From contig JACPHN010000163.1 in NCBI GenBank assembly GCA_016188575.1, forward strand, positions 1 through 43,568: DNA of 43,568 bases, given 5' to 3'. Of the stretch, positions 692-23,056 are shown piece by piece. The notes below the pieces were generated by a model that saw only the letters and a list, made by a program, of their open reading frames with translations, was not told where the DNA came from and did no database searches. Every line of letters begins with the position of its first letter. The first letter of the stretch is position 1. Both the position numbers and the translations under genes were made by a program. The DNA is from Candidatus Schekmanbacteria bacterium. Its GTDB lineage: Bacteria; CSSED10-310; JACPHN01.

Positions 692-3172
692 GTGACTCAC
701 CGCGCACTCCCTGCTTCCTCGCCGCGTCGACCCGCCCGCGCCCACTCGCGAGGCCTCGCGCTTGTCGCCCTCGCCCTGCTCGCCGCCGCCAGCGTCCCGG
801 CCGCCGCCACGGCCGAAGTCGTCTGTATTCCGAACTTCCGCTACCCCGACATGCGCGCTGCCGTGGGCGATGCCGTCCAGTGGACGCCCGTTCCCCAGTG
901 CCTCGGTGATCCACGGCTCGTCGCCCGCAGCTTCAAGCTCCTGCCCACCGGCAACGGGCCCTACGCCAGCGACTATCGCCCCGAGCCGGGGCGCGGCCTG
1001 CAGCTCTCGCCCGCCACCGGCGCGCTCAACGGCACCATAACCCCCGCCACCCGCACCGCTGCGGACGAAGCCGAGGACGATCTGCCAGGCGAAATGGAAG
1101 AGGAGCTCTTTCTCCGTGTCCGCATGTGCTATGGCCCTACGGGCCTCGCCACCATCCTCAAGAGCCTCCAGTTCCCCTCCCGCTACTTGCTCAAAGGTGT
1201 CACCGTCCAGTATCGCCCCTATTCCGCTGACTTGGTGACTCTCCCCGCAACGGCAGTTACCACTGCAAAAGACGTCGTGTACAAGTTTTCCGGGCACGCC
1301 GTCGCGGGCGAGCTCGAGGGGCTCACGCTCTCCGCGGTCCTGCAGACCGAGATTCTGCTCATCAACGGCATTCCCTACACCCGCGCAGCGGAATCGGCCT
1401 CCGCAGTCGCCGAGCCGGTCGAGTCCTTGCGGAGCTGCCGCGACGAGCCGGTGCCGCCCGGCTTCACTCCCCGCGAATGGTCGCAAATGTGCACCTACAT
1501 GGTCCAGCGCGACGTTGCCGCCTGCAACTCCGCCAGCGACGCCGACCGCTGCGTCGACGATGCCGCCCACCGCAATGCGGAGCGCCCTTGGGCTTGCGCG
1601 CCAGGACAACAGGCCTTCGACGGCGCCGTGCGGATCTCGATCGTGGACGAGGCGCCGCTGCGCGTAGCCGAGCCTTACAGCACCGATACGTGGCTGAATG
1701 GCGTCCTGGAGAACCGCCCGGTGACGATTGAAGGCGGCACGGGTCCCGGCACCTACACGTATCGCGTCGAACGCGGCAGCCTTCCCGCCTCCGTTCAGCT
1801 CGACGCCCGCACCGGCACGCTCTCGGGCCGACTGGACGCCAACACCCGCTCCTTCAACGTGACGATCGCCGTTTCCGACCGCGAGAATCGCCGCCTGCTG
1901 CTGCGCGCCTCCGGGCGTCTCGACGGCACCGACGTCATCTTCCGCGCTTGCGACCGACCCGACTTCTCTCGCCCGTGCCTGACCATCTCCGCGCCGCCCG
2001 CGCACGGCCACATGCAGGAAATCAGCCAGATCCGAGACCTCACCGCCATCTACTGGTCGGAGTCCAACGGCCCCATGCCGGCCGACCAGGCAGTCCCCAA
2101 TGACCGCATCAGCTCGCTCTGGGTAGCGCCCGGTTACGAGGCGACGGTCTTTCATCACATCCGCTTCGGCGGCGGCTATACCACTTTCCGCGGCGGCCCC
2201 CGCGACCTGACCGGCAACGCCTTCCACCACACCATTTCCTCGATCGACGTCAGGCCCATCGTCCCGGCACGGCTACGCGGTCTCCGCTACGACGGCGCGA
2301 GCCCCGACCACTCCGAACGGCACTGGGCGCAAGGCGTTCAAGGCATCGCCCATGACGAGCGGAGCTGGTACATGACCTCAGTGGAGCCGAACGGCGACTC
2401 GCCTTTGCCCTACGTCTTCAAGTTTGCGGGCAACTCCATTGGTGACTGGCAGCGCCGGATCGAAATCCCATCTTACTGGGACAACTACTATGCCCCCATC
2501 TGCGACCACGTCGGCGATCCCGACTTTGCCGACGGGTTGCTGCTCGTTCCCGCGGACGGCTGCTCCGTCGACGGCGACGACCGGCCGCGCATCTTCGCCT
2601 ACGACAGTGACCTGCGCTACCAGGGCGCGATCATTCTCGACGGCGTCGACAGTGCGCCGCTGATCGCCGTGGACCCGCATACCGGTTACTTCCTGGTGAA
2701 GAAGACCAACACGACCTTCGGGGTCTTCGAGGGGCCGGTGTCCCGCAAGCTTCACGGAGTCGCCTGGGTGGCGTACGATCTTCAGCTCGCCGTGCCTGCC
2801 GGGCAAAACACCTACGGCTGGATTCAGGGAGCCGAGTTTTCGCCGAGCGGCAAGCTCTACATGATCGCAGAAAACCTGCGGCGCACGGACGGCGGCGACG
2901 ATTTCGAGTTCTTCGGCGTCGGGCCTGGCATCTTTATCTTCAACCTGCACGGCAACCGCGCGGTGCTGGAATCGCGGATCAATATCAATCGCTACGATCC
3001 CGAGTGGGACGGCACGTCGTATCGGTTCGCAGAGCTCGAAGGGCTCACGATCTGGGATCGGCCCGACGCGCCCTACCGCGGGCAGATCCACTATCTGGCG
3101 CTGGAAAACGAGCCAGGAGATGACGACGGCACGCTACACCACGTGACGCTGGATCTGCGCGGGAGCCTGTAG
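692..3172 (+). CDS. Secreted Ig-like / crystallin-like / beta-propeller protein
   Basis: An 826-residue protein starting at GTG 692. An AGGAG motif at 678-682 and an immediate signal peptide (basic residues, LALVALALLAAA, cleavage near ATAEV) decide this start; the longer in-frame extension upstream has no ribosome site. Two putative Ig-like (He_PIG-type) modules are seen, with hallmarks LSPATGALNGT and DARTGTLSGRL. A following stretch (ISSLWVAPGYEATVF, then SSIDV about 35 residues on) resembles a beta/gamma-crystallin unit. The last 300 or so residues (GVQGIAHD, FKFAG, LDGVDSAP, GIFIFNLHG) look like a beta-propeller. Paired cysteines suit an extracytoplasmic location. The role is unknown; binding of surface glycans or calcium is only a guess from the folds. 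Confidence 0.8.
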   Translation: MTHRALPASSPRRPARAHSRGLALVALALLAAASVPAAATAEVVCIPNFRYPDMRAAVGDAVQWTPVPQCLGDPRLVARSFKLLPTGNGPYASDYRPEPGRGLQLSPATGALNGTITPATRTAADEAEDDLPGEMEEELFLRVRMCYGPTGLATILKSLQFPSRYLLKGVTVQYRPYSADLVTLPATAVTTAKDVVYKFSGHAVAGELEGLTLSAVLQTEILLINGIPYTRAAESASAVAEPVESLRSCRDEPVPPGFTPREWSQMCTYMVQRDVAACNSASDADRCVDDAAHRNAERPWACAPGQQAFDGAVRISIVDEAPLRVAEPYSTDTWLNGVLENRPVTIEGGTGPGTYTYRVERGSLPASVQLDARTGTLSGRLDANTRSFNVTIAVSDRENRRLLLRASGRLDGTDVIFRACDRPDFSRPCLTISAPPAHGHMQEISQIRDLTAIYWSESNGPMPADQAVPNDRISSLWVAPGYEATVFHHIRFGGGYTTFRGGPRDLTGNAFHHTISSIDVRPIVPARLRGLRYDGASPDHSERHWAQGVQGIAHDERSWYMTSVEPNGDSPLPYVFKFAGNSIGDWQRRIEIPSYWDNYYAPICDHVGDPDFADGLLLVPADGCSVDGDDRPRIFAYDSDLRYQGAIILDGVDSAPLIAVDPHTGYFLVKKTNTTFGVFEGPVSRKLHGVAWVAYDLQLAVPAGQNTYGWIQGAEFSPSGKLYMIAENLRRTDGGDDFEFFGVGPGIFIFNLHGNRAVLESRININRYDPEWDGTSYRFAELEGLTIWDRPDAPYRGQIHYLALENEPGDDDGTLHHVTLDLRGSL

Positions 3173-3177
3173 GCGAG

Positions 3178-3226
3178 GCCCCCCACCCTGAACCCTCCCT
3201 CCACAAGCGGGGGGAGGGACGCAGGA
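3178..3226 (+). repeat. REP-like palindromic repeat, copy 2
   Basis: It contains CCCCCCAC, then CCCTCC, then ACAAGCGGGGGGAGGG, the block order also found at 14193-14243. It lies just after the stop codon of the gene at 692 and may act as a transcript-end hairpin. Confidence 0.6.
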
Positions 3227-3280
3227 TGGCACGGTCACGCCGACGTCGAAGAGGCGATGGACTTAGGAGCCCGCGCGGCC

Positions 3281-3309
3281 TTGACAATTTCCGGAGTACA
3301 GCGTAAAGA
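3281..3309 (+). promoter_or_regulatory. Sigma-70-type promoter of the hydrogenase operon
   Basis: TTGACA at 3281-3286, a 17-nt spacer, and TAAAGA at 3304-3309. The -35 is perfect and the spacing ideal. Transcription would begin near 3316, leaving about 50 nt of leader before the TTG start at 3366. Confidence 0.65.
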
Positions 3310-3336
3310 CAAGTGCGTGGCGCTGCGATGGTCCAG

Positions 3337-3357
3337 CCTCCCACACTCCCGAGGAGG
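3337..3357 (+). promoter_or_regulatory. Leader hairpin that can cover the ribosome binding site
   Basis: CCTCCC at 3337-3342 can pair with the GAGGAGG Shine-Dalgarno at 3351-3357, 8 nt before the TTG start of the small subunit. In the folded form the ribosome site would be hidden. This pairing is visible in sequence; any regulatory role is inference. Confidence 0.4.
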
Positions 3358-3365
3358 GGGTTCGC

Positions 3366-4325
3366 TTGAATACGTCAGGCTCTGTAGGGTCTCTTTCTCT
3401 GTACTGGACCCAGCTCGGCGGATGCGGCGGGGACACGATGGCCTTTCTCAGCGCCGAGTCCCCCGACCTTCCCGAGCTGTTAGATGCGCTCGATATCGAG
3501 CTGCTCTGGCACCCCTCGCTGTCGGCGCTGCCGCCGCGGGCGCACGCGGGGCTGGTGGAACGGATCAAGAACGGCGAGCAACGTCTGGACATCCTCGTCG
3601 TGGAAGGTGCGGTCATCCGTGGGCCCGCGGGCACGGGAATGTATCACGCTGCGGAGGACAACCCGCGGAAAAACACCCTGGTCGCCCTCGCCCGCAAGGC
3701 CAACATCGTGGTTGCCTTGGGCACTTGCGCCTGCTTCGGAGGAATCGGGGTGGACACCGAGATCCAGAGCACGGGGCTGCAGTATCAGGGCAGGAAGAGG
3801 GGCGGGATTCTCGGGGAGCAGTTCCTCTCGGGCAAGGGGTTGCCGGTCATCAACCTGGCAGGCTGCCCGTGCCACCACGACGTCATCGCGAGCGCCCTGT
3901 ACTCGCTCGCCACGGGGCAGCCGCTGGAGCTCGACGAGTACCAACGGCCGCTCGAATGGTATGGGCTCCTGGTCCATCAGGGGTGCACGCGCAACGAGTA
4001 CCACGAATATCGCGTCGAGGAAGAGGATTTTGGCGAAGTCGGCTGCATGTTCTTTCACCTGGGCTGTCATGGACCGCTCGTCCCCGGGCCGTGCAACAAG
4101 CTGCTGTGGAGCCGGCGTTCGTCGAAGACCCGCGTCGGAGCGCCTTGCCTGGGCTGCACCGACCCGGATTTTCCGCCAAAGTACGCCTTTTTCGAGACGC
4201 GAAACACGGCCGGGATTCCGACGGTGCTGCCGTGGGGGATGAACCGCGCTCACTACCTGGCGTACAAGGGTATGGCGGCCGCTGCGGCCCCGGAGCGCCT
4301 CAAGAAGCGCCTCACCCGCATCTAG
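3366..4325 (+). CDS. hupS: [NiFe] hydrogenase small subunit (group 2-like, cytoplasmic)
   Basis: A 319-residue iron-sulfur subunit carrying electrons from the NiFe site. The start is TTG, supported by GAGGAGG 8 nt upstream. There is no Tat signal: the proximal-cluster motif LGGCGGDT (Cys20) begins almost at once, followed by the group-2-like phrase LLWHPSLS. Further cluster ligands are visible in GTCACFGG, AGCPCHHD, VHQGCTR, GCMFFHLGCHGP, CNKLLW and GAPCLGCTDPDFPP, so three Fe-S clusters are likely. The single first Cys (no CxxC) and missing signal peptide match group 2 uptake or sensory hydrogenases rather than membrane-bound group 1. The large subunit follows after 18 nt. The name hupS is provisional because the subgroup is not resolved. 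Confidence 0.92.
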   Translation: MNTSGSVGSLSLYWTQLGGCGGDTMAFLSAESPDLPELLDALDIELLWHPSLSALPPRAHAGLVERIKNGEQRLDILVVEGAVIRGPAGTGMYHAAEDNPRKNTLVALARKANIVVALGTCACFGGIGVDTEIQSTGLQYQGRKRGGILGEQFLSGKGLPVINLAGCPCHHDVIASALYSLATGQPLELDEYQRPLEWYGLLVHQGCTRNEYHEYRVEEEDFGEVGCMFFHLGCHGPLVPGPCNKLLWSRRSSKTRVGAPCLGCTDPDFPPKYAFFETRNTAGIPTVLPWGMNRAHYLAYKGMAAAAAPERLKKRLTRI

Positions 4326-4343
4326 GGCGAGGGGAGAGCGAGC

Positions 4344-5876
4344 ATGGGCACCCTTAACGTCAAGATACCCGTAAACCGCGTCGAGGGGGACCTCGAGATT
4401 CGGCTGGAGATCAGCAACGGCGTCGTCACCAACGCCTGGAGCATCGGGACGATGTTTCGGGGCTTCGAACGGCTGCTCGTGGGCCGCGCTGCCAGAGACG
4501 CTATCGTGATCACACCGCGGATCTGCGGGCTGTGCTCCACGGCGCACCAGGCCGCCGCCGTGCGCGCGCTGGAGGCCGCCTGCGCCCTCGTCCCACCGGA
4601 CAACGCGATCCGGCTGCGCAACATCGCGCTGATGACCGAGCTGATCCAGAGCGACATCCGGCAGGCGATCCTGATGTTCGCCGTGGACTTCACCAATCCT
4701 TCGCATCGGCGGCTCGACGGCTACGACGAGGCGATCCGCCGCTATCTGCCGCTGCGCGGCAGCGCCGCGATCGAGACTCTCCAGCACACCAGACACCTGA
4801 TCGAGATTGCCGCGATGGTTGCGGGACAGTGGCCGCACTCGACCTTCATGGTCCCTGGAGGCGTCGTGAGCCAGCCCGGTGTGACCACCATGATCCAGTG
4901 CCGGGAGGTCCTTCGGAGCTTCCAGGCCTGGTACGAGCAGCAGATGCTCGGTTGCTCGCTGTCGCGTTTTGCCGCGATCGCCAGCAGCGCGGATCTCGAT
5001 GCCTGGCTAGGGGAAAAGGAAGCGCATCGGCGGAGCCACGTCGGTTTCTTCCTGCAATTCGGGCGGGCGGCCGGCATCGACCGGCTCGGGCGCGGGTATC
5101 CGCACTTCCTGTCGTTCGGGTCGCTGGAGCTACCGGCGGACACCCGGGTCGTGGGCACGGGCGGGAAGCTGGTCCCGAGCGGCTTTGTAAGGGCCACGGA
5201 GGCGTCACCGCTCGACACCGCCAAGGTTACCGAGCACGTCGCGCATTCGTGGTTCGAAGACTACACGGGAGGAAAACACCCGGCCGAGGGCGAGACGAAT
5301 CCGACGGCAATCGGCGACGAAGGGCCGAAGTACTCGTGGTGTAAGGCGCCCCGCTACGACGGCCTGCCCGCCGAAACGGGGCCGCTGGCGGAGCGGCTCG
5401 TCGCCCGCGACCCGCTGTTTTGCGATCTCGTCCAGCAGCAGGGGGCGAGCGCGCTCGTGCGCGAGCTCGCGCGCCTGGTTCGTCCGGCGACGCTGCTGCC
5501 GGCGATGGCCGATTGGATTGAGGAATCCTGTGGGTCCACGGCGGACGACTTTTACGTGTCGCCTGGCGCCATTGCGAACGGTGAGGGCGCAGGTCTGCTC
5601 GAGGCCGCGCGCGGTGCTCTCGGTCATTGGGTGCGACTGCGAGACGGCCGTATCGACCACTATCAGATCATCACGCCCACGGCCTGGCACGCATCGCCTC
5701 GCGACGCGAACGGTGCTCCGGGGCCCTGGGAGCAGGCCTTGCTCGGAACCCCGATCGCCGATCCCGAGGAGCCGGTAGCAGCCGGGTACGTCCTACGGTC
5801 CTTCGACCCGTGCCTGGTCTGCAGTGTGCACACTCTCGAGCGCGGGCGGCACCTCGCCCGCGTGCGGCTCGGATAG
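4344..5876 (+). CDS. hupL: [NiFe] hydrogenase large subunit
   Basis: A 510-residue catalytic subunit that splits or forms H2. Both nickel-binding motifs are intact: RICGLCSTAH (Cys61 and Cys64, His68) and DPCLVCSVH (Cys490, Cys493, His496). Fourteen residues follow the last His, the usual C-terminal extension cut off by a maturation protease after nickel insertion; the protease gene is next door. HupUV/HoxBC-type H2 sensors normally lack this tail, so the enzyme is processed like an uptake hydrogenase even though a signalling gene shares its operon. A GGGGAG ribosome site lies 8 nt upstream. The name is provisional, as for the small subunit. Confidence 0.95.
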   Translation: MGTLNVKIPVNRVEGDLEIRLEISNGVVTNAWSIGTMFRGFERLLVGRAARDAIVITPRICGLCSTAHQAAAVRALEAACALVPPDNAIRLRNIALMTELIQSDIRQAILMFAVDFTNPSHRRLDGYDEAIRRYLPLRGSAAIETLQHTRHLIEIAAMVAGQWPHSTFMVPGGVVSQPGVTTMIQCREVLRSFQAWYEQQMLGCSLSRFAAIASSADLDAWLGEKEAHRRSHVGFFLQFGRAAGIDRLGRGYPHFLSFGSLELPADTRVVGTGGKLVPSGFVRATEASPLDTAKVTEHVAHSWFEDYTGGKHPAEGETNPTAIGDEGPKYSWCKAPRYDGLPAETGPLAERLVARDPLFCDLVQQQGASALVRELARLVRPATLLPAMADWIEESCGSTADDFYVSPGAIANGEGAGLLEAARGALGHWVRLRDGRIDHYQIITPTAWHASPRDANGAPGPWEQALLGTPIADPEEPVAAGYVLRSFDPCLVCSVHTLERGRHLARVRLG

Positions 5877-5890
5877 AGGATACCGCCGCC

Positions 5891-6328
5891 GTGAGCAGGA
5901 TCATCTGCGTAGGAAACCGGTTCGTGCCCGGCGACGACCTCGGCTCGCGGGTGTTTGACGCACTCGCACGGCTCGTGCTTCCCCCCGGCGTCGACGTGGT
6001 CGACGGGGGGCTCGGCGGGCTCGATCTCGCCCGGCTCGCCGAAGGGCAGGACCGGCTGGTGTTCGTGGACGCGATCCGTGGTTTCGGCTCCCCTGGCGAG
6101 GTGCGGATCCTGACGCCGGAAGAGGCGGGCGCTCTCGAGGCTCCGCCCTACGGCCACGCTTCCGGCCTCGCTTACCTGCTTTCGGCGCTCCCCGTGCTGT
6201 TTCCGGGGACAACGCGGCAAGCGGTGTACGTCGCCGGCGCCGAGCCGCCGGTCAGCGATCGCACCTTCGACGACCTGCTCCGGTCCTGTGTGGCGGTCGC
6301 CGCCGCTGGCCGCGGGGGCATGCCGTGA
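5891..6328 (+). CDS. Hydrogenase maturation protease (HyaD/HupD family)
   Basis: A 145-residue nickel-dependent endopeptidase, inferred to remove the C-terminal tail of the large subunit encoded just upstream. The N-terminal GNRFVPGDDLGSRVF fits the family pattern GN..x..DDG.G, with an Asp that can ligate nickel. A second acidic residue in FVDAIRGFG and a late His in YGHASGLAYLL match the other expected ligand regions. The GTG start at 5891 begins the conserved fold directly; the longer upstream frame overlaps the large subunit and was rejected. The stop overlaps the cyclase start by 4 nt (ATGA), implying translational coupling. Confidence 0.88.
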   Translation: MSRIICVGNRFVPGDDLGSRVFDALARLVLPPGVDVVDGGLGGLDLARLAEGQDRLVFVDAIRGFGSPGEVRILTPEEAGALEAPPYGHASGLAYLLSALPVLFPGTTRQAVYVAGAEPPVSDRTFDDLLRSCVAVAAAGRGGMP

Positions 6329-7587
6329 CCAGAGGATTGGACGAGCTCATCGCGGAGAACGCGGCATTCCGGCGCGAGATCGAGATCGCGCGCGAGGCTC
6401 AGGCGATCACGGCCGAGCTGGTCGTCGCGCAGTTCGTCACGGTCGAGAACATCCTGCGGCAGCTCGAGGTGGCGAAGGCCAAAGCCGAGGAGGCACAGCG
6501 CGCCACCGAGCTGAGGAATCGGTTTATTCGACTGGTGTTCGGGCGCTACCTGTCCGATGAGGTCGTGGAGAGCCTGCTCGAGTCGCCGACCGGGCTGCAC
6601 CTGGGAGGAGAGAAGCGCAAGGTCTCGGTCATGATGACGGACTTGCGCGGCTTCACCGCGATCTGCGAGCGGCTTCCGGCGGAGAGCGTCGTTGCGATGC
6701 TGAACACCTACCTCGAGTCGATGACCGACGTGATCCTGCGGCATGGTGGCACGATCGACGAATTCATCGGGGACGCGATCCTCGTGATTTTCGGCGCTCC
6801 GATTCCACGCGAGGACGACGCTCTGCGCGCCGTGACCTGCGCGATCGACATGCAGCTCGCGATGCACGGCATCAACCAGTGCTTTCGCGAGGCCGGCTAC
6901 CCCCAGGTGGAGATGGGGATCGGCATCAACACCGGCGACGTCGTCGTCGGGAACATCGGCTCCACCCGCCGGGCGAAATACGGCATTGTCGGCCACAACG
7001 TCAACCTCACCTCCCGAATCGAATCCTATGCGGTGGGCGCTCAGGTGTTGATTTCCGAGAGCACGTTGCGCGACTGCCGGGGTCTGCTCGAGATCCGACG
7101 AGCGCTCGAGGTCATGCCCAAGGGCGTCGAGGCGCCGGTGACCATCTTCGAGGTCGGCGGGGTCGGTGGAGACTACGGCTGCTGTCTCCCGCGGGCAGCG
7201 GCGGCAAGCTTCGCGGAGCTGCCCACCCCGCTGCCCGCCAAGCTCGCGATCATCGAGAACAAGCATGCCAAGTCGGAAATGGACGACGGCGCGATCGTCG
7301 CTCTCGCCGAGAACACGGCGCGGCCCGTGTGCGCCGCCGAGCTGCCGCTCTATGCAAACGTCAAGCTGCGCATTTTCGACGAGGCCGGCGGCGTTCTGTG
7401 CTCGGAGGTCTACGCGAAGGTGACCGGAGCGGGAAATGGCGAGCTCGTGCTCCATTTCACCTCGCTGCCGGCCGAGGGAGGGGCGCTGCTGCGATCCCGT
7501 CTCCGTGAGGCTCGCAGTGGGCAGCGTTCGACCCGGGAAAGCGGAGCTGATGGGCCCACCGGCCGGCTCTCGGCGACAACCCCCTGA
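6325..7587 (+). CDS. Class III adenylate/guanylate cyclase
   Basis: A 420-residue soluble protein. Residues 1-65 are a predicted coiled coil (LDELIAENAAFRREIEIARE). The cyclase core spans about 95-270 with both metal aspartates, TDLRGFT (Asp106) and FIGDAILV (Asp150), and the transition-state pair NLTSR (Asn227, Arg231). The usual purine-selecting Lys and Asp positions appear to hold Glu146 (DEFIGD) and His224 (VGHNVN), so cAMP versus cGMP cannot be assigned. Residues 285-400 form a C-terminal beta-rich module ending LYANVKLRIF, YAKV and HFTSLP, possibly PilZ-like. There is no transmembrane segment. Its start overlaps the protease stop, placing it inside the hydrogenase operon and suggesting a link between hydrogen turnover and a cyclic-nucleotide signal. 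Confidence 0.88.
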   Translation: MTRGLDELIAENAAFRREIEIAREAQAITAELVVAQFVTVENILRQLEVAKAKAEEAQRATELRNRFIRLVFGRYLSDEVVESLLESPTGLHLGGEKRKVSVMMTDLRGFTAICERLPAESVVAMLNTYLESMTDVILRHGGTIDEFIGDAILVIFGAPIPREDDALRAVTCAIDMQLAMHGINQCFREAGYPQVEMGIGINTGDVVVGNIGSTRRAKYGIVGHNVNLTSRIESYAVGAQVLISESTLRDCRGLLEIRRALEVMPKGVEAPVTIFEVGGVGGDYGCCLPRAAAASFAELPTPLPAKLAIIENKHAKSEMDDGAIVALAENTARPVCAAELPLYANVKLRIFDEAGGVLCSEVYAKVTGAGNGELVLHFTSLPAEGGALLRSRLREARSGQRSTRESGADGPTGRLSATTP

Positions 7588-7674
7588 TGGCTATGCGGCT
7601 TCCGGCGGGATGCGCGCAGGGAAAAGTCGTGGACCCGGCTTCCTTTCGCGGCCGGCGCTGGCCTGCAATTTGAG

Positions 7675-8022
7675 ATGCACGAGTACTCGATCGTTCAGGC
7701 GCTGATCCGGCGCGCCGAGGAAACGGCCCGTGCCCACGCCGCCCGCCGGGTCGAGGGGCTGCGCGTGCGGATCGGAACGCTCGCGGGAGTCGAGCCCGTT
7801 CTGCTGCTCGCTGCCTTCGAGGTATGTCGTGAAGGTACTCTGTTGGGCGACGCCGAGCTGTCGATCGAGAGCGTCGAGGCGCAGTGGGCGTGCAGATGCT
7901 GCGGCTGCGGCATCGCCGCCGGCGGCGCGCTCCGGTGCGAAGCCTGCGGGGGCCCGGGGCAGCTCGTCGCGGGATCGGAGATCGAGCTGGACAGCATCGC
8001 GCTGGAGGTTGACGATGTGTGA
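7675..8022 (+). CDS. hypA: Hydrogenase nickel incorporation protein HypA
   Basis: A 115-residue nickel metallochaperone that passes Ni(II) with HypB to the hydrogenase large-subunit precursor. The N-terminus MHEYSIVQAL carries the family's nickel-binding His2. The C-terminal half has a structural zinc site made of two Cys pairs (CRCCGC, then CEACGG). Length is normal. No strong Shine-Dalgarno is visible before the ATG; 87 nt separate it from the cyclase stop. Its last 8 nt overlap the start of hypB. Confidence 0.95.
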   Translation: MHEYSIVQALIRRAEETARAHAARRVEGLRVRIGTLAGVEPVLLLAAFEVCREGTLLGDAELSIESVEAQWACRCCGCGIAAGGALRCEACGGPGQLVAGSEIELDSIALEVDDV

Positions 8023-8719
8023 TCATTGCGGTTGCGGAGATGGTGGTGTGGTGACGGTCGAGGTGCACGAGCGGATCCTGGCCAGCAACGAGCGGGCGGC
8101 GGCTCACAACCGAGCGCACTGGCTCAGGGAGCACGTGGTCGCGGTAAACCTGATGGGATCGCCAGGCGCCGGAAAGACGGCGCTTCTCGAGGCGACCGCG
8201 CGGGCGGCGGGAGGCCGTCTTCGGCTTGCCGCTCTCGCCGGCGATCTGGCCACCGACCGCGACGCCGAACGGCTGCGAGCGGCCGACATCCCAGCGGTCT
8301 CGATCACGACTGGCTCGGCCTGCCACCTCGATGCGGCCCTCGTGCACTCCGCGCTGCACGATCCGCCCTGGCACGGAGCGATTGATCTGCTGTTCATGGA
8401 GAACGTAGGAAACCTCGTCTGCCCGGCCGTCTACGACCTCGGCGAGGCCGCCCGCGTGGTCGCGCTCTCGGTCACCGAAGGCGAGGACAAGCCGCTCAAG
8501 TATCCCGTCATGTTCCACAAGGCCGACGTGGTCCTGCTGACCAAGATCGACCTCCTGCCCTTGCTGCCGGACATCAGCATCGAGCGGATCCGGGACGCTC
8601 TCGCGCACGTCATGCCGGAACCTCTGCTCTTGCCACTGTCCGCGCGGACCGGAGAAGGCATCTCGAGCTGGCTCGACTGGCTCGATGAGCGCCGCCGGCG
8701 CCTGTTCGGCGACGAATAG
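8015..8719 (+). CDS. hypB: Hydrogenase nickel incorporation GTPase HypB
   Basis: A 234-residue SIMIBI-class GTPase that drives nickel delivery to the hydrogenase. It starts MCDHCGCGD, the N-terminal high-affinity nickel motif, overlapping hypA by 8 nt. The P-loop is GSPGAGKT. Metal-binding residues in the G domain are seen in TGSACHLDA and NVGNLVCPA, and the guanine-specificity motif is TKID. There is no long His-rich storage stretch. The remaining maturation genes hypC, hypD, hypE and hypF are absent here and must lie elsewhere for an active enzyme. Confidence 0.95.
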   Translation: MCDHCGCGDGGVVTVEVHERILASNERAAAHNRAHWLREHVVAVNLMGSPGAGKTALLEATARAAGGRLRLAALAGDLATDRDAERLRAADIPAVSITTGSACHLDAALVHSALHDPPWHGAIDLLFMENVGNLVCPAVYDLGEAARVVALSVTEGEDKPLKYPVMFHKADVVLLTKIDLLPLLPDISIERIRDALAHVMPEPLLLPLSARTGEGISSWLDWLDERRRRLFGDE

Positions 8720-8764
8720 GTCGAAAGTGCTCTCGCAGCTCGACGAGCTGCTCGCGCTCATCCC

Positions 8765-8810
8765 TTCGTCAGCCGGTCCAAAACCCCGCCATTCAGGGCG
8801 GAATCGCCGC
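8765..8810. repeat. Left copy of a 46-bp inverted repeat
   Basis: These 46 bases match the reverse complement of 14498-14543 at 45 of 46 positions; the single mismatch is A versus G at the 16th base. It contains a small hairpin (CCGCC, loop ATTCAG, GGCGG). It lies between the convergent ends of hypB (8719) and the gene ending at 8814, so it may also help end transcription. Confidence 0.9.
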
Positions 8811-8813
8811 GGC

Positions 8814-9386
8814 TCACCACGCGTATTGCTCTTCCAGGCCGCACAGCTCGTCGACGCGGCGTTGGACGATGGCGCTGCGGTTTTCCTTCCGCTTTTTTTG
8901 CAGCTCGGTGAGCCGGGCGAGCTCGGCCTGCAGGTGCTGGATCTCCTGGGCGCGCCGCTGCTCGCGCAAGTCGAAGAGGTTGCCCACGAGCTCCTCGAGC
9001 TGCTTTTTTACGCGGAGACGCTCGCCCTCATCCGCTGCCTGGCGGTACTGGAAACCGAGCTCCGACATTTTTGCGTCCATGCTTCGCTCCTGAACAGCGA
9101 GGCGAAACGCCTCCGGATCTTCCCGCTTTAGCATCGCCAGATGCTCCTTTTCGCGCAGCGCGTCGCGCAGCATAAGGTCGAGCTGGTGCGGCTGCTCGCG
9201 TCGCAGTGCCTCGAGCTCATTACGCCGCTCGGGCACGCCATTCATCAGGAACTCGAGTGCCTCCGCTCGCTCCTGGTCCGAGAGCTCGCTGTGCTGAGGC
9301 GCCGCGGGCTGCTCGCCGCGTGCGGCGCTGACCGCGGTCACTGCCACGGCCAGACCCAGGGCCATCGCAATCCACATTCTTGTCAT
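8814..9386 (-). CDS. Secreted coiled-coil protein of a sigma/anti-sigma operon
   Basis: A 190-residue protein with a clear signal peptide (MTRMWIAMALGLAVAVTAV, cleavage near AARGEQ). The rest is almost wholly charged and helical, with heptad-like Leu spacing (QHLQAELARLTELQKK) typical of a coiled coil. GGAGGG lies 7 nt upstream of the ATG. It is the third gene after the sigma factor and anti-sigma factor, 38 nt after the latter, so it is probably periplasmic and co-expressed. I do not recognise a named family. A periplasmic sensor or Spy/CpxP-like chaperone is a possible analogy from size and helicity only. Confidence 0.7.
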   Translation of the reverse strand: MTRMWIAMALGLAVAVTAVSAARGEQPAAPQHSELSDQERAEALEFLMNGVPERRNELEALRREQPHQLDLMLRDALREKEHLAMLKREDPEAFRLAVQERSMDAKMSELGFQYRQAADEGERLRVKKQLEELVGNLFDLREQRRAQEIQHLQAELARLTELQKKRKENRSAIVQRRVDELCGLEEQYAW

Positions 9387-14574: not shown

Positions 14575-15546
14575 ATGACTGCCACCGCCACGGCGGAAAT
14601 GTGCGCCATCATGGACGAAGCAATCGACACCGCGGCGCTGGTCAGCGAGATCAGGACGCTGAAAGCCGCGCGCGACGCGGTGATTCTCGCTCATAACTAC
14701 ATGATTCCCGAGATCTTCCAGGTCGCCGACGTTGTGGGCGACTCGCTCGATCTGTCGCTGCAGGCCGCCAAGGTCGAAAAGCCCGTCATCGTGTTTTGTG
14801 GCGTGCATTTTATGGCGGAGACGGCAAAGCTCGTCAATCCCACCCGCCTCGTGCTCTTGCCGGATCTGCGCGCCGGCTGCAGCCTGGCCGACGCCGCCGA
14901 CGCCACAGACGTCGCCGACCGCATCGACGAGCTGCGTGCGCTCCACGGCGACGACCTCGCCGTGGTGTGCTACGTGAACACGACGGCGGCCGTAAAAGCC
15001 TGCTGTGACGCCTGCTGCACCTCCGCAAACGCACCCGCCATTGTCCGCAAGCTGCCGGCACGAAACATCCTCTTTCTTCCCGACGCCAACCTCGCGGGCT
15101 ACGTGCAGCGGCACGTGCCGGAAAAGAGAATCATCGCCTGGGAGGGGAACTGCTACGTCCATCAGCAGATCGAGCCCGACGAGATCAGGAAGATCCGTGA
15201 CGCGATTCCGGGCATCGTCGTTCTGGTCCACCCCGAGTGCCGGCAGGACGTGTGCGCGCTCGCCGATGCCGTGCTGTCGACCAGCCAGATGGTGGTGGAG
15301 GCGAAGGCGCGGCCGGAAACGGAGTTCCTCGTCGTCACCGAGTGCGGGCTTTCCGGTCGCCTCGAGCTCGAAGTCCCCGAGAAGAGCTTTTATCGCGCAT
15401 GCAAGCTATGCCGCTACATGAAGATGATCTCGCTGGAAAATGTGCGCGATTCGCTGTGGCACCTTCGCCACGCCATCGAGATTCCCGAGGCCGTGGCGGT
15501 CCCGGCGCGGCGGTCCATCGAACGCATGTTTGAGCTCATGCGGTGA
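14575..15546 (+). CDS. nadA: Quinolinate synthase NadA
   Basis: A 323-residue [4Fe-4S] enzyme that condenses iminoaspartate with dihydroxyacetone phosphate to quinolinate, the NAD precursor. Signatures: ILAHNYMIPEIFQVADVVGD, CGVHFMAETAKLV, DLRAGCSLAD, CYVNTTAAVKA, VLVHPEC, and YRACKLCRYMKMISLE, including the three cluster cysteines. The ATG at 14575 is preferred over the one at 14560 because GGGAG (14562-14566) lies 8 nt before it. nadB and nadC are not in the window. Its stop overlaps the GTG start of the next gene. Confidence 0.95.
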   Translation: MTATATAEMCAIMDEAIDTAALVSEIRTLKAARDAVILAHNYMIPEIFQVADVVGDSLDLSLQAAKVEKPVIVFCGVHFMAETAKLVNPTRLVLLPDLRAGCSLADAADATDVADRIDELRALHGDDLAVVCYVNTTAAVKACCDACCTSANAPAIVRKLPARNILFLPDANLAGYVQRHVPEKRIIAWEGNCYVHQQIEPDEIRKIRDAIPGIVVLVHPECRQDVCALADAVLSTSQMVVEAKARPETEFLVVTECGLSGRLELEVPEKSFYRACKLCRYMKMISLENVRDSLWHLRHAIEIPEAVAVPARRSIERMFELMR

Positions 15547-16670
15547 GCGCGGCGTTTTGGGCGCGCATCGTCGAGCAGCTTCGCCGCGGTGATGGTGCCG
15601 TCGTCGCCACGGTGATGCGGACGCGCGGGTCCACGCCCAGAAGCGTCGGGAGCCGAATGGCAGTGCTTCCGGGGAGCGCCATCGTGGGGACGGTCGGGGG
15701 GGGCTGTGGCGAGGCGCGCGTGATCGAATGTGCCCAGCAAGTGCTGCAAGGGCGGCCCGCGCGGGTCGTGGAAATCGACCTGACGGGCGATCCGGACCAG
15801 GACGAGGCGCCGATCTGCGGTGGTCGCATGGAAGTGCTGATCGAACCGTGGCAGCCGGCGGACCTCGTCGACGCCGAGCGCATTGCGGCGGCGGAAGCGC
15901 GGCGCGAGGAGGTGGCGGTCGTCACGGTCGCCACGTCGCGCGCGCAGGGGTGGTCTCCCGGGCAGCGCACTCTGTGCCTGGCAGGGAGCGAGCACGAGTG
16001 CGCGCGGCGGCTGGGGCTCTCGGGAAAGGCGGCGGTGGTCCTCGGGCAAACTCTGGCCCGGCGCGAGTATCGAGTCTATGCCGTCGGCAGCGACGGCATG
16101 ATCACGGCGGAACGTAGCACGGGCGGCGCTGAGCCGATCGCCGCCGAGCTGTTTTTCGCGCCATGTCTCGCGGCGCCGGTCCTGGCCATCGTCGGCGCCG
16201 GCCACATCGCGCAGGCGTTGTGCGAGATCACCTTCGCTGCCGGCTTCGCGGTGACCGTCCTCGACGACCGCGCGGCGTTTGCGAACCCGGAGCGTTTCCC
16301 GCGCGCGGAGCGCGTGGTCGCAGACGACTACCCCGGCGTGCTCGGCCTGCTGCCGCGGGGCCGTAACGCTTTTGTGGTGATTGCGACCCGCGGGCACCAG
16401 TACGACGAGGTGGCGCTCCGCCACGTGCTCGGGCGTGCCGAAATGCCGCAATACGTCGGCATGGTCGCGAGCCGGCGGCGCGCCAAGACGACCCGCGCAC
16501 GGCTCGAGGCCCACGGCATCGATCGCGCCCGGCTCGCTGCCGTGCACATGCCGGTTGGCTGCGACATCGGCGCCGAGACGCCCGCGGAAATCGCCATCGC
16601 TATCGCTGCCGAGATGATCACCGAGCTCCGCCGCGGGCAACCCCGCCCGCCGGGGGAGCGCGGCCAGTGA
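15543..16670 (+). CDS. XdhC/CoxI-family molybdenum hydroxylase maturation protein
   Basis: A 375-residue protein of the XdhC family, which binds molybdenum cofactor, supports its sulfuration and inserts it into xanthine-dehydrogenase-type enzymes. The N-terminal part has RGSTPRSVGSRM and the family stretch GTVGGGCGEARVIECA. The C-terminal Rossmann domain starts LAIVGAGHIAQALCEITFAA and carries VIATRGHQYDEVALR and YVGMVASRRRAKTTRARL. The GTG start overlaps the nadA stop. The next gene is a MocA-like nucleotidyltransferase, as expected. The client hydroxylase is not in the window. Confidence 0.88.
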   Translation: MSAAFWARIVEQLRRGDGAVVATVMRTRGSTPRSVGSRMAVLPGSAIVGTVGGGCGEARVIECAQQVLQGRPARVVEIDLTGDPDQDEAPICGGRMEVLIEPWQPADLVDAERIAAAEARREEVAVVTVATSRAQGWSPGQRTLCLAGSEHECARRLGLSGKAAVVLGQTLARREYRVYAVGSDGMITAERSTGGAEPIAAELFFAPCLAAPVLAIVGAGHIAQALCEITFAAGFAVTVLDDRAAFANPERFPRAERVVADDYPGVLGLLPRGRNAFVVIATRGHQYDEVALRHVLGRAEMPQYVGMVASRRRAKTTRARLEAHGIDRARLAAVHMPVGCDIGAETPAEIAIAIAAEMITELRRGQPRPPGERGQ

Positions 16671-19371: not shown

Positions 19372-20283
19372 TTGCGGGACGTCTATGGCGATCTCGACGG
19401 CAATCTGAGGACGCTCGAGGAGTCGTTTCAGGTCCGCGTCACCACCCACGATGACACGGTGGAGCTGGAAGGCGACGTTGACGACGTCAAGCGCGCCGCG
19501 GAGCTGCTGCGGCAAGCGGCGGCGCTGGTAACGTCGGTGGGCAAGATGAGCCCACAGGACTTCGAGAATGCGCTACAATATGCGCTACGGCAAGACTCGT
19601 GCGACAGCGCGGACTTTTTTCGCCAGATGCTGTTCGCCCCGACGATGCGGCACGCCGTTTCGCCCAAGTCCCCGCGACAGGCGATGTTCATCCGCGCCAT
19701 GCAACAGCACGACATCGTGTTCGCGATCGGACCCGCGGGTACCGGCAAGACCTACCTCGCGGTGGCGATGGCCGTGGTCGCATTTCTCGAAAAGAAGGTG
19801 CGGCGCATCATCCTCGCCCGACCAGCGGTTGAGGCCGGGGAACGGCTGGGGTTCCTGCCCGGCGATCTCATTCAGAAGGTGAATCCGTACATGCGGCCAC
19901 TCTACGACGCGCTCTATGACCTGATGGACCGCGACCGCGTCGGCGTGCTCCTGGAGAAGGATGAGATCGAGGTGGCGCCGGTCGCCTTCATGCGGGGGCG
20001 CACCCTCAGCGAGGCCTTCGTCATCCTGGACGAAGCGCAAAACACGACGCCGGCGCAAATGAAGATGTTGCTTACGAGGCTCGGCCAGGGTTCCAAGGCC
20101 GTGATCACCGGGGACATCACGCAGATCGATCTCCCCGACCCGAAAAATTCCGGCCTGGTCACGATTCAGCGGATCTTGAACAATGTCCGCGGCATCGAAT
20201 TCGTCTACCTGGGCGACCGCGACATCGTCCGGCACGATCTCGTGCAGCGCATCATCAGAGCATACGAAAAACATGGCGAGTGA
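19372..20283 (+). CDS. phoH: PhoH-family ATPase
   Basis: A P-loop ATPase with a predicted role in RNA metabolism, usually clustered with ybeY as here. Walker A is GPAGTGKTYLA, followed by ILARPAVEAGERLGFLPGDL, FVILDEAQNTTPAQMKMLLTR in parts, and TGDITQIDLP. The listed start is TTG 19372. However, the same frame is open further upstream and encodes a typical first strand (ESIVIPGESLRDVYG). The only upstream start-like codon is CTG 19312, with GGGAG (19300-19304) 7 nt before it. I think the true protein may begin there, adding 20 residues. The end overlaps the next gene by 11 nt. Confidence 0.92.
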   Translation: MRDVYGDLDGNLRTLEESFQVRVTTHDDTVELEGDVDDVKRAAELLRQAAALVTSVGKMSPQDFENALQYALRQDSCDSADFFRQMLFAPTMRHAVSPKSPRQAMFIRAMQQHDIVFAIGPAGTGKTYLAVAMAVVAFLEKKVRRIILARPAVEAGERLGFLPGDLIQKVNPYMRPLYDALYDLMDRDRVGVLLEKDEIEVAPVAFMRGRTLSEAFVILDEAQNTTPAQMKMLLTRLGQGSKAVITGDITQIDLPDPKNSGLVTIQRILNNVRGIEFVYLGDRDIVRHDLVQRIIRAYEKHGE

Positions 20284-23056
20284 GTCCCGCATTCAGATCT
20301 TGGGCAAACTCTTGAACAAGCCCAACCCAAAGGATCTCGGGCTGCGGCCGGCCGGGAGCCAGGGACGGTGGAACCGGCTCGGTATCGGTCTGGGCTTTGC
20401 GCTCATGCTGGCGCTGACGTGGCTGATCGCGCCGGCGGACACGCGGGTGGACGTCTCGGCGTATGCGCTTGGCGAGCCGGCCCCGCACGACATCAAATCG
20501 GACCGCGAGTTCAGCATCGAGGATCGCAGCACCACCCTGGGCAAGCAGCAAGAAGCCGAGCTCGCCATGCGGTCGCTCTACGACCACGACGATCTGGTCC
20601 CGGTGCGACTGACGCGGCAACTTCGCGACGCCTTCGACATCGGGGTCCAGGCGAACGACGCGTACGAGCGGTTGCGGCAAGGCATGGCGGATGCAGGCGA
20701 AACGGGCGCTTCGCCAGAGGCTGCGGGCAACGGCGCCAGGCGATCCCAAGAGCGCAGAAACGGCCGGCGCAACGGCACGCCGGATCGCACTTCCGCCACG
20801 GCGGCCCGCCCCCCCGTCTCGCCGCCCGCGATCCTGTCGGCAGCGGATACCTTGCCGAGCCTCGCCGAAGCCCTGGGCATGTCCGCTGAGGCCTTTCAAC
20901 TGCGCACCGGCATGTTCTGGGAGCGGACCCGCGTCAGCTTCGAGAAGCGCGTCGGCGTCGATGTCCCCAAAGAGCTCTTCGCGACGCTGCGCAGCGCCGC
21001 TTTTGCTCCCGAGCTCCTCGCGGCGATCGTCGAACCGCTCACCACCGTCTACCAGGTCGGCGTCGTCACCGACAAGGACGCCATCGCCGCGGAAATGCCC
21101 AAGGGCATTGTCGCCCGCTATCTGGGCTCGCGCGAGGAGCGCCTCATTCTCCGGGCTGACCGGGTCCTGAGCCTCAGCGAGGCCAACGAGGTCGTGCGCA
21201 CCTCACTTCGCGAGCGATTCCGCGATCGGCTCGACGTGTCGCAGGCGCTCGCCGACCTCGCCGACCGCTTGCTCGCGCCCAACCTCACCCCCAATCGCCA
21301 GGAAACGGAGACTCGCCGCGACTTCGCCCGCGCCGCGGTGGAACCCGTCTATTATCAGGTGAAAAAAGGCGAGATGATCGTTCGCGAAGGCGAGCGGATC
21401 ACGGAAACCACGGTCATGAAGCTCCAGGCGATGCACCGCCAGCACCACGGTGGCGCGGCCTGGCTGTTCAGCCTCGGGATTTTCCTCATCGTCATGCTCA
21501 TCCTCGGGTACGGCTACTCGTACTTGATGCGATTTCGACCGAACCTGGCGATGAACCATGACAAGCTCGCGCTCCTCGGCACGATCACCCTGCTGCACAT
21601 GATCGTCCTGCGGGCCATGATGTGGCTGGCGGAAATGGTCGCGGCGAGCCAGGCGCAGTTTCCCTTCAACCAGGTCAGCTCGTACTACTTCGCGCTGCCC
21701 TATGCGGTCGGCCCCTTGCTCGTCGCCTTGCTCGTGGATCAGCGCGTCGCCGTGCTGTTCTCGACGGTGTACGCCGTGTTCGCCGGCCTCGTCACCGGAA
21801 ACAACTTCGAGTACACCCTGGCGGCGCTCGTCGGCTCCTACGCGGCGGTGTTTTCGGTTGCGCAGTATCGGCAGCGCACCGCGATCACGCGCGCGGGCCT
21901 GCTGATCGCGGTTTTCAACGCCCTGGTCATTGTCAACATGCGCCTCGGCACCGGCATGTCCCCGCTACAGCTCGAGCTCTTCGGCGGCTCGTGGCTCTTC
22001 GATTGCTTGTGCGGTCTGGTCGGCGGTCTGCTCGTGGCCTTCGTGGTGCAGCCCATCATTATCGGCCTGGAGAACGCCTTTCAGCTCACGACCGACGCCC
22101 GGCTCCTGGAGCTGTCCAACCTCGATCAGCCCCTCCTGCGCGAGCTGATCATGAAGGCGCCGGGTACCTACCAGCACAGCCTGGCCGTAGGAAATCTCGC
22201 CGAGGCGGCCGCGGAGACAATCGGCGGAAACTCGCTCTTCGCGCGCGTCGCGTCCTACTACCACGACATCGGCAAGATGAGCAAACCGCACTACTTCGTC
22301 GAAAACCTCGCGGGCCGCAAGAACCCGCACGAAAAACTGAAGCCGAACCTCAGCGCCCGTATCATCATCAATCACGTCAAGGAGGGCGTGAAGCTCGCTC
22401 GCGAATACAAGCTGGGAGAGCCGATCATCGATATCATCCTCGAGCATCACGGCACGAGCCTGCTCTACTTCTTTTACAAGAAGGCGTGCATGAACGCCGA
22501 CAGCAAGGTGCGCGCGGTCAACGAGGAAGAGTTCCGCTATCCCGGTCCGCGACCGCGCACCAAGGAATCGGCGATCATCATGATTGCGGATTCCGTCGAG
22601 GCCGCGAGCCGCACGCTCGCCAATCCGACTCATGCGCGCCTCAAAGGGCTGGTGCGCCGCATCGTCGCCGACAAGTTCGAGGATGGCCAGTTCGAGCTGA
22701 GCACCTTGTCGCTCACCGACCTGTCCAAGATCCAGGACGCCATGGTTCACGTCTTGACGGGCATCTATCATCACCGTCTGAACTACCCGGGAATCGATTT
22801 CGAGCCGGACAAGAGCAAGAAGCGCCGCGCGGAACAACCAGCGGCGGAGGCGCCCGAGGCGGTCGAAAGCGGGGAAACCGTCGGGGCGGTGGCCGGCGCG
22901 GACGGCGACGACGGGGACGGCGACGACGGGGATGGCGATGGCGCAGACGGGGACAGGGCCGACGTGCTCGCGGCCACACTGGACGAGAGCGTCAAGGATA
23001 CCGTGCGCACGCGCGAGCGCGTCGCGATTGCGCCCAACCCGGAAGTCGATGGCTAA
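20273..23056 (+). CDS. 7TM receptor with intracellular HD hydrolase (PgpH-like)
   Basis: A 927-residue membrane protein. An N-terminal membrane anchor (IGLGFALMLALTWLIA) leads to an extracytoplasmic 7TMR-HDED-type region (about 75-400), then about seven transmembrane segments (400-610), then an HD domain with HSLAVGNLAEAA, SYYHDIGKMSKPHYF and LEHHGTSLLYFFY. Family members in Firmicutes (PgpH) hydrolyse cyclic di-AMP. No substrate can be assigned here. A polar insert near 145-165 (RRSQERRNGRRNG) and a Gly/Asp tail (DGDDGDGDDGDGDGADGD) are not family features. It lies between phoH and ybeY, overlapping both. Confidence 0.92.
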   Translation: MASESRIQILGKLLNKPNPKDLGLRPAGSQGRWNRLGIGLGFALMLALTWLIAPADTRVDVSAYALGEPAPHDIKSDREFSIEDRSTTLGKQQEAELAMRSLYDHDDLVPVRLTRQLRDAFDIGVQANDAYERLRQGMADAGETGASPEAAGNGARRSQERRNGRRNGTPDRTSATAARPPVSPPAILSAADTLPSLAEALGMSAEAFQLRTGMFWERTRVSFEKRVGVDVPKELFATLRSAAFAPELLAAIVEPLTTVYQVGVVTDKDAIAAEMPKGIVARYLGSREERLILRADRVLSLSEANEVVRTSLRERFRDRLDVSQALADLADRLLAPNLTPNRQETETRRDFARAAVEPVYYQVKKGEMIVREGERITETTVMKLQAMHRQHHGGAAWLFSLGIFLIVMLILGYGYSYLMRFRPNLAMNHDKLALLGTITLLHMIVLRAMMWLAEMVAASQAQFPFNQVSSYYFALPYAVGPLLVALLVDQRVAVLFSTVYAVFAGLVTGNNFEYTLAALVGSYAAVFSVAQYRQRTAITRAGLLIAVFNALVIVNMRLGTGMSPLQLELFGGSWLFDCLCGLVGGLLVAFVVQPIIIGLENAFQLTTDARLLELSNLDQPLLRELIMKAPGTYQHSLAVGNLAEAAAETIGGNSLFARVASYYHDIGKMSKPHYFVENLAGRKNPHEKLKPNLSARIIINHVKEGVKLAREYKLGEPIIDIILEHHGTSLLYFFYKKACMNADSKVRAVNEEEFRYPGPRPRTKESAIIMIADSVEAASRTLANPTHARLKGLVRRIVADKFEDGQFELSTLSLTDLSKIQDAMVHVLTGIYHHRLNYPGIDFEPDKSKKRRAEQPAAEAPEAVESGETVGAVAGADGDDGDGDDGDGDGADGDRADVLAATLDESVKDTVRTRERVAIAPNPEVDG

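Follow-up and report, generated by a model that had tools for sequence, protein, structure and literature searches.

The gene cluster

The window analyzed here is the whole of contig JACPHN010000163.1 (43,568 nucleotides) from a Candidatus Schekmanbacteria genome (GCA_016188575.1), and it carries a six-gene cluster on the forward strand that combines a nickel-iron ([NiFe]) hydrogenase with a nucleotide cyclase. The cluster opens with hydS (3366..4325; TTG start) for a hydrogenase small subunit of 319 amino acids (Pfam Oxidored_q6 and NiFe_hyd_SSU_C), followed by hydL (4344..5876) for a large subunit of 510 amino acids (Pfam NiFeSe_Hases, 271 bits) and the gene of a hydrogenase maturation protease of the HycI/HupD type (5891..6328; HycI PF01750, 41 bits; TIGR00072 above cut-off). 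The fourth gene (6325..7587) encodes a class III nucleotidyl cyclase (Guanylate_cyc, 100 bits against a cut-off of 21.9) with a putative hydrogenase-docking helix at its N-terminus, and two nickel-handling genes complete the group: hypA (7675..8022; PF01155, 91.5 bits), encoding a metallochaperone, and hypB (8015..8719; CobW/HypB Pfam; TIGR00073, 252 bits), encoding a nickel-insertion GTPase. The Pfam assignments of all six genes are above their curated cut-offs.

The GTG start of the cyclase gene sits within the GTGA at the end of the protease gene (4-nucleotide overlap), and the reading frames of hypA and hypB overlap as well. This layout—a class III cyclase between the protease and hypA/hypB, downstream of both subunits and all on one strand—agrees with a first-pass annotation of the sequence, but the one good promoter that this annotation had proposed did not hold up: the TTGACA at about 3283 has a -10 element matching at only 3/6 positions at 17-nucleotide spacing, and a promoter scan of 3100-9000 found no sigma-70 site. 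No terminator-like sites lie between the six genes, and those listed fall within genes or outside the group. As the promoter does not score, it is only the spacing and overlap of the genes that suggest a single transcription unit.

A putative docking segment shared by different signaling proteins

A search with hydL over genome contigs recovered relatives from several phyla, and in those that resemble hydrogenases of group 2c (see below) the gene after hydS-hydL(-protease) encodes varied signaling proteins such as histidine kinases or diguanylate cyclases (in one relative, this gene is cut by the contig end). The first 60 to 70 residues of these downstream kinases and diguanylate cyclases match residues 3-69 of the window cyclase, and Glu18, Arg23, Ala25, Thr29, Ala30, Val33, and Gln36 are invariant across eight such N-termini. 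This docking segment, as we call it, covers approximately residues 1-63 of the cyclase (6325..6513; profile E 4e-23) and lies within a stretch, residues 2-72, that AlphaFold2 predicts as one continuous helix running into the FGRY element of the cyclase (block predicted local distance difference test [pLDDT] of 80-97); the full-length model has a mean pLDDT of 53, and only the N-terminal helix is trustworthy.

A profile of the segment, built from 8 and then 19 N-termini of output proteins only, was searched against approximately 1,600 distinct genomes (two of the searched genome sets largely overlap) and returned 57 loci that had not been part of the training set, each of which was inspected. 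Without exception (57/57), the segment sits immediately behind a hydrogenase of the same clade on the same strand, with hydL visible in 56 cases and only the protease left upstream at the remaining locus, L069, which is at a contig edge. Conversely, all clade loci found via hydL alone carry the segment (7/7), and the window's own 9.2-Mb genome has a single profile match, at the cyclase, despite encoding at least 12 class III cyclases. The segment is absent from the group 2a and 2b reference loci searched, and the profile found none in the plasmids searched. Because the profile was made from output proteins only, while kinases and diguanylate cyclases are generally numerous in such genomes, this linkage constitutes strong guilt-by-association evidence that segment and hydrogenase belong together. 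No description of such a segment across output types was found in the literature searched, which omitted most subscription papers and the paper defining group 2c.

Some loci vary the arrangement. In Desulfobacteria-type loci (L111 and L135-L138), a segment-kinase gene follows hydL and no adjoining protease gene was detected, and a plasmid of Ideonella dechloratans (L112:5035-10736) encodes hydS, hydL, the protease, and a diguanylate cyclase/phosphodiesterase on a very long branch, with an N-terminus that weakly resembles the docking segment.

The outputs behind the segment are diverse. Diguanylate cyclases are joined to it directly in the culturable Desulfobulbus alkaliphilus DSM 24258 (L020) and relatives, with a PAS domain in L019 and L106, and segment-bearing kinases are often followed by a receiver-GGDEF gene. 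At the G007 locus, which belongs to the window's phylum, a segment-bearing hybrid kinase is followed by a separate receiver-class III cyclase; the window protein has the segment joined straight to a class III cyclase. On the hydrogenase tree, the diguanylate cyclase output requires three changes and the cyclase output one, the latter nested among kinase loci. Since the same segment is joined to histidine kinases or diguanylate cyclases in other bacteria, the window protein appears to be an output swap on a common module for sensing molecular hydrogen (H2). It also looks like a short-circuited form of the two-step G007 arrangement, given that the two cyclases are 49% identical across core and C-terminal extension. 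Kinship of the hydrogenases was considered as the source of the cyclase and rejected, as the tree does not place the two as sisters; the likeness is thus a parallel and not a traced ancestry.

Phylogeny and active-site features of the hydrogenase

A maximum-likelihood phylogeny built from 72 large subunits (supports given as bootstrap/Shimodaira-Hasegawa-like approximate likelihood ratio test) places the window hydL in a clade of 62 rows (100/98) separate from groups 2a (100/100) and 2b (100/100); its neighbors within this clade are loci with mostly kinase outputs. Its L2 motif SFDPCLVCSVH differs by one conservative change, T to S, from the group 2c consensus SFDxCLVCTVH (PMC4853749), but most of this motif is common to all three groups and by itself it does not separate 2c from 2a or 2b. 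The motif being too permissive as a classifier, we relied on the tree and on gene linkage. HydDB treats group 2c as a putative, diguanylate cyclase-linked group whose members "may sense H2 and regulate processes through cyclic di-GMP production," and gives its role as undetermined. By L2 motif, position, and diguanylate cyclase linkage (L019, L020, L067, L068, L070, L071, L073, and L106), the window's clade matches this putative sensor group in a tree without a HydDB-labeled 2c sequence, so we refer to it as 2c-like. Linkage to a diguanylate cyclase is not a trait of the window itself, and because a class III cyclase stands in its place we file the window hydrogenase as a 2c-like variant rather than a plain member. 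It differs from group 2b by its C-terminal tail and protease, and from group 2a, as it lies outside the clade of Huc-type references.

The four active-site cysteines of hydL (Cys61, Cys64, Cys490, and Cys493) are invariant in an 8-sequence alignment, and behind the last active-site histidine follows a tail of 14 amino acids, TLERGRHLARVRLG, which the group 2b references lack. In hydS, the Cys/His cluster ligands are retained except that Asp23 replaces the fourth cysteine of the proximal cluster. This aspartate is a signature of the clade (59/59 aligned members including the window), whereas the same position holds Asn in 2a references and Cys in 2b references. Loss of the proximal cysteine through an LGGC-for-CGGC change in hydS was considered and rejected, because the residue concerned does not belong to the canonical ligands. 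Judged by eye, hydS lacks a signal peptide, so the enzyme is probably cytosolic. On these points the first-pass annotation fared well: the hydrogenase is group 2-like and probably soluble, with a protease and with a tail that group 2b lacks, and the tree that it had called for narrows the assignment to the 2c-like clade. Residues conserved solely in this clade fall for the most part into two regions of hydS, 205-245 next to the distal cluster and 296-315 close to the C-terminus, and we propose these stretches as the interface for the docking segment.

Two readings of the locus would assign the hydrogenase a different job. It might be a plain uptake or electron-delivering enzyme whose operon merely includes a regulatory cyclase, the two having no direct contact. 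The relay, active-site cysteines, tail, and protease are indeed as in energy-conserving enzymes, and the closest solved structure for both subunits is the group 2a uptake enzyme Huc (7utd; large subunit, E 2e-112). However, the docking segment occurs solely next to hydrogenases of this clade, in several phyla and with three different kinds of output attached, and the cluster contains none of the DUF1641, NHL-repeat, and NifU companions that accompany the 2a enzymes in Mycobacterium and Thermus, which makes this reading improbable. Alternatively, the hydrogenase might report the cellular redox state or O2 through its iron-sulfur relay, with the cyclase as output. The invariable Asp23 could tune the potential of the proximal cluster in such a device, but conserving the NiFe-site cysteines and keeping the protease and hypAB would be wasteful without H2 binding, and we consider this similarly improbable.

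The cyclase and its predicted product

Behind the docking helix, the cyclase continues with the FGRY motif of a transducer element (residues 72-75; 6538..6549), identified by alignment to 6fht and described for Synechocystis Cya2 (PMC5995499). The catalytic core (residues 95-280; 6607..7164) contains both metal-binding aspartates (Asp106 and Asp150) and the transition-state residues Asn227 and Arg231, in line with the class III assignment of the first-pass annotation. Its closest solved relative is 2w01 (E 7e-64), which matches the Cya2 portion of 6fht and is taken here to be Cya2. Toward the C-terminus lies an extension (residues 289-405; 7189..7539) without a Pfam family that is common to the G007 receiver-cyclase and a paralog on contig C65. 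This conserved piece of about 115 amino acids (window 7189-7539, L012:13231-13617, and L150) is similar in length to the uncharacterized extension of Cya2; a PilZ-like domain had been suspected there by eye, but no PilZ match was obtained in Pfam even at E 10.

The first-pass annotation left the product as cyclic adenosine or guanosine monophosphate (cAMP or cGMP), and while a cyclic-nucleotide output is supported, the core points away from an even choice. Most bacterial class III cyclases are adenylyl cyclases, and this general trend favors an otherwise identical module that makes cAMP, or both nucleotides, as an H2-responsive adenylyl cyclase. The selectivity pair of the window cyclase, Glu146 and Gly220, is nonetheless that of the guanylyl cyclase Cya2 and not the Lys and Thr of the CyaB chain 3r5g, and the G007 receiver-cyclase has the identical pair. 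The single change E488K switches Cya2 from guanosine triphosphate to adenosine triphosphate and thus to cAMP production (PMC5995499); the window cyclase has Glu at this position. Based on this GTP-type pair, cGMP appears likelier than cAMP, and we judge a cAMP-producing module unlikely.

A proposed hydrogen-responsive cyclase

Taken together, we think it likely that the cytosolic 2c-type hydrogenase is an H2 sensor with a class III cyclase as its output, most likely making cGMP. The intact NiFe site would bind and cleave H2, and the small subunit would most likely contact the docking segment of about 63 residues, which would read its redox or conformational state. The signal would then travel from the segment along a coiled coil and, by way of the FGRY transducer, reach the catalytic dimer and alter cyclic-nucleotide synthesis there. 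Such a route has a precedent in the Cya2 core, which can be driven by a foreign phytochrome sensor via a coiled coil that leads into its FGRY element (PMC5995499). That hydrogenase and cyclase bind each other, that H2 is what is sensed, which way synthesis responds, and that cGMP is made are all things that we infer. The first-pass annotation had likewise favored a hydrogen-responsive cyclic-nucleotide system over a plain uptake enzyme, and it gains support from the exclusivity of the segment to signaling partners of this clade and from the match to group 2c.

Several observations weigh against an H2-responsive cyclase. Ideonella, though inside the clade, scores 6.8 bits for the segment compared to a shuffle maximum of 8.9. 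This one contig is the only place where a direct fusion between the segment and a class III cyclase was seen, so that the recurrence of a small subunit-large subunit-protease-cyclase order raised by the first-pass annotation holds in part: the hydrogenase with docking segment recurs, but with swapped outputs, and G007 has a kinase plus receiver-cyclase instead. Furthermore, the full electron relay and processed tail are kept, unlike in proven group 2b sensors, and the hydrogenase may therefore also turn over H2.

On a broader level, the balance tips slightly toward a general H2-sensing module in which one segment is plugged into a kinase, a cyclic di-GMP synthase, or a cyclic-nucleotide synthase, with the window encoding a direct H2-to-cGMP receptor; no precedent for a gas receptor of this kind was found in the literature searched. 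The docking segment would tie these hydrogenases to their signaling partners at the level of sequence and mark the partners of the whole clade, extending the known outputs beyond cyclic di-GMP so that they also include two-component kinases and class III cyclases. Together with the predicted direct H2-to-cGMP receptor, it makes the question of whether group 2c is a sensor experimentally tractable, and the natural modularity of these proteins seems attractive for engineering H2-controlled signaling.

Other features of the genome and window

Contig C265 of the same genome (L013:6672-10070) encodes another [NiFe] large subunit (29% identity) beside an NAD-binding/DHODB iron-sulfur protein; this is a group 3-like hydrogenase on which the H2 signal could act. 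The class III cyclases of this genome carry varied sensors (e.g., L150 on C65 and L153 on C194), making for a rich cyclic-nucleotide repertoire. Elsewhere in the window, a 7TMR-HDED/7TM/HD-domain receptor of PgpH-like architecture (20183-23056) is a possible further cyclic-nucleotide signaling protein, and positions 15543-16670 encode an XdhC/CoxI family protein with an XdhC Rossmann domain.

Comparison with known systems

Among known systems, group 2c is closest in organization: a two-subunit hydrogenase near group 2a without signal peptide, an SFDxCLVCTVH-like L2 motif, and a signaling enzyme encoded next to it. Its putative output is a diguanylate cyclase, as also found within the window's own clade, whereas that of the window is a class III nucleotidyl cyclase. 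The group 2b sensors (HoxBC/HupUV with the kinase HoxJ/HupT) similarly combine a hydrogenase and a partner signaling protein in one cluster but form their own clade, lack the C-terminal tail, and signal through kinases without a docking segment. Huc of Mycobacterium smegmatis (group 2a) is the nearest among solved structures, yet it belongs to a separate clade with Asn in place of Asp, and the 2a reference genes have assembly and other genes as neighbors with no signaling output. On the side of the cyclase, Synechocystis Cya2 and its phytochrome fusions PagC and PaaC align in core and FGRY element and share the selectivity pair and a C-terminal extension of similar length, but the natural sensor of Cya2 is a CHASE2 domain rather than a hydrogenase, and it has no docking segment.

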